From: Lyngbya confervoides BDU141951
Lineage (GTDB): Bacteria; Cyanobacteriota; Cyanobacteriia; Thermosynechococcales; Thermosynechococcaceae
Assembly: GCF_000817775.3 (NCBI RefSeq)
Contig: NZ_JTHE03000091.1
Coordinates: forward strand, 1-64,000
Reading direction: 5' to 3'
DNA length: 64,000 nt
Shown here: piece by piece, positions 19,923-22,066 of the stretch
Layout of the letters: the number at the start of each line of letters is the position of its first letter
How positions within the stretch are numbered: the stretch's first letter is position 1
Translations under genes and position numbers: made by a program
Notes under the pieces: model-generated
The model's input: only the letters and a program-made list of their open reading frames with translations
What the model was told of the DNA's origin: nothing
Database searches by the model: none

Positions 19923-21992
19923 ATGCAGTACTGCCTGAAACTGAACTGCGAAAAGCCAGAAAATGGGGATGGGGCTGAGGTTTGTTTCAGTTGTGGCACC
20001 CGACTGCTGCTGCGCAATCGCTTTCGGATTTTGAAACCCTTGGGTGAGGGTGGGCTCGGCAAAACCTATCTAGCCCAGGACTGCGACAAGATGGATGAGC
20101 CTTGCGTGGTCAAGCAATTGAAATATGAGTCCCACGGTACCCAGGCAAATAAAAAGGTGATTGAGCTGTTTTTGCGCGAGGCGCAGCAGCTTTACCAGAT
20201 GCGCGGGCAAGCGCAGATCCCGGATTTGATGGCCTACTTTGAGGATGAAGGCTACTTTTATCTGGTTCAGGAACTGATTGATGGCGAGGATCTGTCGCAG
20301 GAAAAGGAGCGAGGGCTGTTTGATGAAGCGAAGATTCGAGTCCTTTTGGCGGATGTGCTGCCAATTTTGAGCTTCATTCACCAGCGCGGCGTGATTCATC
20401 GCGACTTGAAGCCGGCCAACATCATGCGGCGCAGGCAAGATGGCAAGCTGATGCTGATTGATTTTGGGGTGTCGCGGCAGCTCTCGCAGGGATTAACGAG
20501 GGTGGGGGGAATTACGATTGTAGGCACCCCAGGGTATGCGCCGTTTGAGCAGATGACAGAAGGACAGGTGGATCCTGGGCCAGCGAGCGATCTGTATAGT
20601 TTGGGTGTGACCTGCTTTGAGCTGATGAGCGGGATTGTGCCCTATCCACTGATGCTGCAGGAGGGCTATCGCTGGGTGGAGAATTGGCGGCAGCGTGTGC
20701 AGCAGCCGGTGAGTGCGGAACTAGCGGGCGTGATGGATGGGTTGCTGAAAATGCGTTCTCAGGAGCGGTTCCAGACGGCGGATGCGGTGTTAGGAGCGCT
20801 GAATGCCGAGGCGAGTTTAGCGGCCTATCGCCAGCATTTGGCGGAGTACGCGCAGGAATATCGCAAGATGGCGGCGGCGCAATGGCCGCTGTCGAGCTAT
20901 TTGCTGGAGCAGTTGGGACGGATGCGAGCGGCTTGGGGGCTGCAGCCGGAGGACGTGGAGCGGGTAGAGCGGCCAATTCGCGATCGCGTTGAGGCGGCGT
21001 ATCAGGCGCGAACGGCCCAAGAGGTGGAGGCTTTGCCGCAAGAGGCTGAGGGACAGCAGCGGCAGCAGGAGATTAGGCAAGCGGAGGAGCGACGGCGGCG
21101 GCGAGAACTTGAAGCGGAGCGACAACGGGTTCAGGTCTTGCAGCAGGAGCTTGAAAACCAGAAAAAACAACAAACCAATGCTCCTGTGGCCTTGAGTTTG
21201 CAGTCTTTTTCATTTGAGACGGTTAGATCAGAAAAGAAATTTTTAGTATTTGGTGAGTCTGTTAGTAAGCGAGTAACGCGATCGGCAGAATTTTTCCGTG
21301 AAGATTTAGGGAATGGTGTCACGCTCGATCTGGTGATGATTCCGGGGGGAACTTTTGTGATGGGATCGCCAGAATCAGAAGCGGGGCGAACCAGTGCTGA
21401 AGGGCCGCAGCGGGAGGTGACGGTACCTGCCTTTGCGATGGGGAAATACCCAGTGACCCAGGCGCAGTATGAGGCGCTGATGGGGAATAATCCATCGAAC
21501 TTCAAGGGGGCGAATCGACCTGTGGAGCGGGTAAATTGGAATGAGGTCGTAGAGTTTTGCCAAAAGCTTTCGAGCTTGGCGGGAAAGACGTATCGATTGC
21601 CGAGCGAAGCGGAGTGGGAGTATGCCTGTCGGGCAGGGACAACAACGCCGTACTTCTTTGGCCAGACGCTATCAAAGTCTCAGGCCAATTTTAGCTCTGC
21701 GGCGACGACAGAGGTGGGCTCATTTCCGGCAAATGATTTTGGCCTCTATGATATGCATGGCAATGTATATGAATGGTGTTTAGATCCTTGGCACGAAGAC
21801 TATCAAGGCGCACCGACCGATGGAAGTGCTTGGGTGACAGGGGGAGACTCGTCGCGGCGTATCCTGCGGGGCGGCTCCTGGACCGACTTCCCTAGGTACT
21901 GCCGTTCGGCGGATCGCGTCAGGCTTGATCCGGGCGATCGGCACAGCGTCTTCGGTTTTCGGTTGGCGTTGTCTGCTTCGAGGACATCCTAG
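19923..21992 (+). CDS. Zinc-ribbon Ser/Thr kinase fused to FGE-sulfatase-fold domain (candidate DGR target)
   Basis: A 689-residue cytoplasmic signalling protein. Residues 1-27 are a zinc ribbon (Cys4, Cys9, Cys21, Cys24). Residues 35-290 are a Hanks-type kinase that looks active: G-loop LGEGGLGKTYLA, Lys in CVVKQL, catalytic loop IHRDLKPANIM, DFG in LIDFGVSR and APFEQ. Residues 340-420 are a Gln/Glu/Arg-rich coiled coil. Residues 450-685 have the formylglycine-generating-enzyme / C-type-lectin fold: VMIPGGTFVMGS, YRLPSEAEWEYACRAG, DMHGNVYEWCLDPW and LRGGSW. The paired catalytic Cys of true FGE are not seen (one Cys in RYCRSA), so this part more likely binds ligand. Its last 35 codons resemble a DGR variable region. 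Confidence 0.9.
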   Translation: MQYCLKLNCEKPENGDGAEVCFSCGTRLLLRNRFRILKPLGEGGLGKTYLAQDCDKMDEPCVVKQLKYESHGTQANKKVIELFLREAQQLYQMRGQAQIPDLMAYFEDEGYFYLVQELIDGEDLSQEKERGLFDEAKIRVLLADVLPILSFIHQRGVIHRDLKPANIMRRRQDGKLMLIDFGVSRQLSQGLTRVGGITIVGTPGYAPFEQMTEGQVDPGPASDLYSLGVTCFELMSGIVPYPLMLQEGYRWVENWRQRVQQPVSAELAGVMDGLLKMRSQERFQTADAVLGALNAEASLAAYRQHLAEYAQEYRKMAAAQWPLSSYLLEQLGRMRAAWGLQPEDVERVERPIRDRVEAAYQARTAQEVEALPQEAEGQQRQQEIRQAEERRRRRELEAERQRVQVLQQELENQKKQQTNAPVALSLQSFSFETVRSEKKFLVFGESVSKRVTRSAEFFREDLGNGVTLDLVMIPGGTFVMGSPESEAGRTSAEGPQREVTVPAFAMGKYPVTQAQYEALMGNNPSNFKGANRPVERVNWNEVVEFCQKLSSLAGKTYRLPSEAEWEYACRAGTTTPYFFGQTLSKSQANFSSAATTEVGSFPANDFGLYDMHGNVYEWCLDPWHEDYQGAPTDGSAWVTGGDSSRRILRGGSWTDFPRYCRSADRVRLDPGDRHSVFGFRLALSASRTS
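21860..21985 (+). repeat. Candidate DGR variable region (VR) in the FGE-fold C-terminus
   Basis: From the L-R-G-G-S-W motif onward, the variable-looking codons are all of the form NNC or NNT. After Trp (21979-21981 being too late, the Trp codon is at 21879-21881) come ACC, GAC, TTC at 21882-21890. Further along are TAC (21897), GAT (21912), GTC (21918), CTT (21924), GAT (21927 and 21936), and CAC, AGC, GTC, TTC at 21942-21953. Each could come from AAC, AAT or ATC by changes only at A. The scaffold codons between (Pro, Arg, Cys, Arg, Ser, Ala, Pro, Gly-Phe-Arg) match the usual cyanobacterial FGE-type DGR pattern. No template copy or reverse transcriptase is visible in the window, so the assignment is inference. 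Confidence 0.55.
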
Positions 21993-22048
21993 CCCTTTGC
22001 TCTTTGGCTCTTTTACCCTTTTCCCAGCACTTTTTGGGTGCCCCCCTG

Positions 22049-22066
22049 CCCCCCGGTTCCGGGGGG
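22049..22066 (+). other. GC-rich hairpin downstream of the candidate variable region
   Basis: CCCCCCG (22049-22055) pairs with CGGGGGG (22060-22066) across a GTTC tetraloop. No T-run follows on either strand, so it is not a classical terminator. A 7-bp GC stem with a 4-base loop placed after a variable region recalls the cruciform element required for retrohoming in the Bordetella phage DGR, though here it lies roughly 65-80 bases past the last variable codons. Confidence 0.4.

Follow-up and report, generated by a model that had tools for sequence, protein, structure and literature searches.

A probable remote target of a diversity-generating retroelement at the 3′ end of a kinase–lectin fusion gene of Lyngbya confervoides

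Diversity-generating retroelements (DGRs) are natural targeted mutators. In the 64,000-nucleotide stretch of Lyngbya confervoides BDU141951 DNA analysed here (the window), the 3′ end of a gene encoding a protein kinase fused to a lectin-like domain is very probably the variable region (VR) of a remote DGR target, overwritten by reverse transcriptase (RT) cDNA from a template RNA made elsewhere. The variation in this region is adenine-specific and its scaffold is homogenised. Homologous cassettes are present in relatives and absent from the assembly of the genome itself.

The kinase–lectin gene and its variable region

The fusion gene is an open frame at 19923-21992 on the forward strand and encodes a Ser/Thr kinase, a charged linker and an FGE-type C-type-lectin domain, 689 amino acids in all (Pfam Pkinase and FGE-sulfatase). 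The protein kinase domain covers residues 35-288 (20025-20786, forward strand; PF00069, E = 1.6e-39), and the HRDLKPAN and DFG motifs can be read in its translation. The FGE-sulfatase domain, residues 469-682 (21327-21968, forward strand; PF03781, E = 1.2e-52), forms the C-terminal end of the product and places a CLec-type fold at the 3′ end of the frame. In a PDB search, this domain aligned across the variable region with TvpA (2y3c), a DGR variable protein of Treponema denticola. Judged from the fold and the fusion, the lectin tip may give the kinase tunable sensing. The flanking ORFs look like housekeeping genes (FolD-like, NdhD-like and MutS2-like).

The VR lies at 21864-21983 on the forward strand and combines a fixed scaffold with about 28 predicted template-adenine columns. 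An earlier, sequence-only reading had described a run of NNY codons after an LRGGSW start and had taken the end of this intact kinase–FGE fusion for a DGR target. LRGGSW does begin at 21864, in frame with the ORF, and the codon run is present as described, with ACC GAC TTC .. TAC .. GAT .. GTC .. CTT GAT .. GAT .. CAC AGC GTC TTC set in a fixed scaffold. Comparison of VR and template ends points to a putative IMH-like end, TTCGAGGAC, at 21977-21985 (forward strand), where the templates of relatives have GAGCACT or GAGTACT.

The genome is available as a draft assembly of 4.85 Mb in 122 contigs, reported to be 100% complete, and holds further copies of the VR. One ends another kinase fusion, which has a DnaJ_C match (C60:8510-8646; gene at L016:6571-8646), and a third, at C60:67-201, belongs to a gene that the start of the contig truncates. 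The two copies share about 82% DNA identity with the window copy, and the similarity extends some 35-40 bases beyond the stop codon. No other FGE match in the assembly supplies the missing 5′ part of the third gene; thus, the assembly is missing sequence adjacent to a VR. A fourth copy, which is divergent, forms the end of an FGE gene on contig C59 (L012:1480-2136, minus strand) and has a scaffold nearer to another template type. An EgtB-like FGE gene on contig C67 was considered as a further VR gene and rejected, as it does not have the VR scaffold.

The three similar copies differ from one another in 26 of their 120 columns. Twenty-one of these fall on the 28 template-adenine columns and five on the other 92 (Fisher p = 3.9e-13), which bears out the earlier view of the fusion's end as a DGR target; the reference template comes from a genome of another cyanobacterial family (G066), the donor template being inferred from other genomes. 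Compared directly with the same template, the window VR is mismatched at 17 of 27 adenines and at 7 of 66 other positions (p = 6e-7). Twelve further templates, which bring the number compared to 13, gave adenine-bias p values from 4e-5 to 3e-3.

The window gene and its paralogue on contig C60 differ at first, second and third codon positions in a ratio of 9/9/3 within the VR and 62/65/127 upstream. The sequence-only reading had named ordinary substitutions spread over all codon positions, in orthologues of related strains, as a pattern that would speak against a DGR, and the paralogues clearly depart from it. Third positions differ in 3 of 35 codons in the VR against 127 of 216 upstream (p = 1.7e-8), and silent differences at identical residues number 2 of 21 against 66 of 119 (p = 8e-5). 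Near-identical silent sites in the VR next to a diverged upstream region indicate that the genes had long since diverged when their VR scaffold was homogenised and codon positions 1 and 2 were randomised. A homogenised scaffold with varied first and second positions is to be expected of mutagenic homing from one template and not of ordinary divergence. Gene conversion among VRs could account for part of the homogenisation.

DGR cassettes in the assembly and in relatives

The sequence-only reading had found no RT or template in the window and had proposed a cassette acting in trans. The absence from the window was confirmed, and the remainder of the assembly proved likewise negative; the proposed cassette was not found in the 4.85 Mb, which yielded no DGR RT, Avd, template repeat or template-associated RNA. 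A genome with no RT or template had been named beforehand as an outcome against the proposal, and this is what the 4.85 Mb assembly presents. Searches with RVT_1 and with a DGR RT alignment revealed no DGR RT in the assembly. The sole RVT_1 match, C101:18938-19207, is a truncated RT that lies at the end of its contig. It was rejected as a DGR RT because it is truncated, scores higher with RVT_1 (60.8 bits) than with the DGR model (48 bits, compared with more than 430 for intact or larger RTs of relatives) and has no template or VR nearby; its motifs suggest a group II intron RT. The three VRs were all that a template DNA search recovered from this assembly, and a degenerate template pattern allowing as many as three mismatches gave the same result. 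Neither the covariance model of the template-associated RNA nor Avd, which was found in three relatives (G019, G050 and G066), had a match in it. A wider scan of genome contigs returned distant relatives only.

In a comparison set of one genome per species, with no other member of the genus among the relatives searched, a DNA search found the VR in 23 of 145 genomes, this one included. Several of them carry a cassette that consists of an A-rich template (AACAACAATCCGAGGAACTGCCG and similar), at least one VR matching it except at A, and an RT. Thirteen homologous templates in relatives are accompanied in this way by an RT and VRs. The RTs are about 370 amino acids long, with the motifs GLPIGNLTSQ and YVDD. 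In annotated plasmid cassettes, Avd immediately precedes the RT, and it adjoins the RT in the three relatives named above. RTs of the same type are encoded by plasmids of Nostoc, Fischerella, Anabaena, Microcystis and Acaryochloris marina, and a search of plasmids with the window VR returned one distant match, on a Fischerella plasmid. Plasmid pREC1 of Acaryochloris marina MBIC10699 (L203) carries an entire DGR, comprising Avd, a template and three FGE targets; the DGR adjoins IS200/IS605 transposase genes, and the plasmid is typed as conjugative.

Fourteen of the 23 VR-bearing genomes have no DGR RT in their assembly, and four of these 14 retain the template RNA described below. G019, G017, G008 and G025 belong to the same family as the genome of the window. 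In G019, an insertion of about 1.1 kb (L088:5176-6322) with inverted ends, GGGAGCATGTCACCTTTGC, and a transposase-like ORF interrupts the DGR RT. In G017, the VR is joined directly to the template RNA, the RT is gone and short Avd-like remnants are left; the junction fits what recombination between VR and template would leave. VRs fused straight onto template RNA were seen at L199:3425 (minus strand), L186:748 (minus strand) and L124:6629 (plus strand). Such fusions are perhaps scars of VR–template recombination, or else assembly chimeras. Only the VR is found in G008, G025 and the genome of the window. In G112 (L200:3825-4500), template and VR match apart from adenine columns and the assembly has no RT, which indicates that a missing RT can also reflect the assembly or a lost replicon.

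Sequences that follow variable regions and templates

From the stop codon of the window gene, directly after the VR, runs a pyrimidine tract (21990-22028, forward strand; 83% C+T in the best 36-nt window). It is followed at 22049-22066 (forward strand) by a GC-rich inverted repeat, CCCCCCG-GTTC-CGGGGGG, with a 7-bp stem, which is a candidate target-site hairpin or cruciform by analogy with Bordetella phage BPP-1 (PMC3240598). Together, tract and hairpin are a putative target-site element downstream of the window VR. Over 22 cyanobacterial loci, a tract of this kind, typically TAGCCCTTTGCTCTTTTGCCCTTTTGCCCT, follows 34 of 36 VRs and none of 19 templates, and is seen in 3.2% of random segments; the observation comes from window 21990-22028 and from L076-L093, L124, L127, L142, L187, L188, L200 and L202. 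A stem of at least 6 bp comes after the tract in 20 of 36 VRs, compared with 11% of controls, and its loop often has three bases. The C60 copies have the tract with stems that are only A+T-rich or short, so the hairpin is inconstant even within this genome. No description of a pyrimidine element in DGRs was found in the literature searched, which does not prove that it is undescribed.

After every template, a structured RNA of about 150 nt is found instead (A3; L084:5287-5450, L088:6875-7060 and other template loci), in which CACTCTTC pairs with GAAGAGT. Of its 38 predicted pairs, 21 have both partners changed, and its covariation score exceeded that of every one of 500 shuffles. The covariance model matched all eight RT-bearing genomes that had been left out of model building. 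Rfam gave no match for the template RNA at the five loci scanned, nor for the window stretch.

These observations suggest, tentatively, that cyanobacterial DGR targets possess a dedicated address after the VR, made of a pyrimidine tract of about 40 nt and usually a subsequent GC hairpin with a short loop, while templates do without the tract and carry the covarying RNA. It is possible, though we would put it somewhat below probable, that such an address opens dispersed genes, for example the kinase gene of the window, to cassettes on other replicons. If so, the address would explain the persistence of targets in genomes without a mutator of their own. A tract confined to targets and an RNA confined to templates would also give a practical starting point for asking how the system singles out a remote gene as its target and spares the template.

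Origin of the variable region and comparison with known systems

According to the mechanism proposed here, a DGR RT and template-repeat RNA from elsewhere would replace a segment of about 120 bp with cDNA mutated at template adenines, so that some 15 residues in the lectin-like domain change and the scaffold and the kinase stay as they were. The same template type would have worked on the two other genes on contig C60, and a different template would have shaped the fourth copy on C59. We infer that the diversification took place in trans, that it may be going on at present and that the fusion senses a ligand, which the lectin tip would probably bind, thereby regulating the kinase fused to it. 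Either the cassette lies unassembled, on a plasmid or in a gap, or it was lost recently with the variants frozen. It is very improbable that no DGR was involved and that the FGE binding loop diverged fast by ordinary mutation and selection. FGE-fold proteins that are not DGR targets do align over the same stretch, but in the VR silent sites are conserved and codon positions 1 and 2 varied, and the upstream domain shows the reverse. Moreover, the variable columns coincide with template adenines, and the DNA similarity extends into the untranslated tract.

Given a remote DGR target, recent loss of the cassette and a cassette that escaped assembly are about equally likely explanations of its orphan state. 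There is close to an even chance that the genome still has the DGR, carried by a plasmid or hidden in an assembly gap, and that it diversifies the kinase gene in trans. Only 5 of the 92 non-adenine columns differ among the three copies, and scaffolds so nearly identical imply that homing was recent. Contig C60 starts within a VR gene, the 5′ part of which is seen nowhere else, RTs of the same type reside on plasmids in five cyanobacterial genera, and the matched template and VR of G112 sit in an assembly without an RT. An assembly rated 100% complete in which RT, Avd, template and template RNA are all unseen argues against a cassette that is still present and favors, at somewhat short of even chance, its recent loss, with the window gene as a frozen variant retained as an ordinary sensor. 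Loss is also consistent with the decay in relatives, where the RT is split in G019, VR and RNA are fused beside Avd remnants in G017, the VR alone survives in G008 and G025, and the DGR RT is missing from 14 of the 23 VR-bearing genomes. Recent loss is, however, at odds with the small amount of drift in the VR scaffold and with the draft assembly gap that adjoins a VR gene.

Several known systems bear on this locus. Remote variable proteins of cyanobacterial DGRs with an N-terminal Ser/Thr kinase and a C-terminal CLec module have already been described (PMC7517822). They resemble the window gene in the kinase–CLec architecture, the VR at the 3′ end, the lack of an adjoining cassette and the several dispersed paralogues per genome; however, each was attributed to a DGR in its own genome, whereas no DGR RT or template was found genome-wide here. 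The paralogue all3226 of Nostoc sp. PCC 7120 retains remnant TR–VR homology with no nearby RT (PMC7517822). Like the window gene, it is a target without adjacent RT genes or pseudogenes, but its genome still has two DGRs elsewhere, unlike the present assembly.

In Thiohalocapsa PB-PSB1, trans-diversified DGR loci have been proposed and diversification was seen in natural populations (PMC10907252). Incomplete loci and remote targets make both genomes candidates for trans action; Thiohalocapsa has an RT or TR in its genome in addition to the population diversification, whereas the window locus is known from one assembly, which yielded no RT or TR. RT-less DGR fragments of nanoarchaea have been read as fossils or remote sites (PMC4372165) and are likewise VR-type sites without an RT gene, but their target proteins are unrelated and their genomes hold other complete DGRs. 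The target site of Bordetella phage BPP-1 comprises the IMH and a downstream hairpin or cruciform, and the hairpin is required there (PMC3240598). BPP-1 and the cyanobacterial loci share an element just downstream of the VR, beyond TR/VR homology, and a GC hairpin; what stays constant across the cyanobacterial loci is the pyrimidine tract of about 40 nt that precedes the hairpin, the hairpin itself being less constant.

Kinase–lectin remote DGR targets in cyanobacteria are therefore known, and the window locus is a further case. Worth pursuing further are the absence of a mutator from the entire assembly, the series of decaying cassettes, the tract that accompanies targets only, and the template RNA without an Rfam match. 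The genome provides a test case of a DGR target without a mutator in its assembly, in a family with visibly decaying cassettes, and makes it testable whether RT-less cyanobacterial targets are frozen sensors or are served by plasmid-borne mutators.
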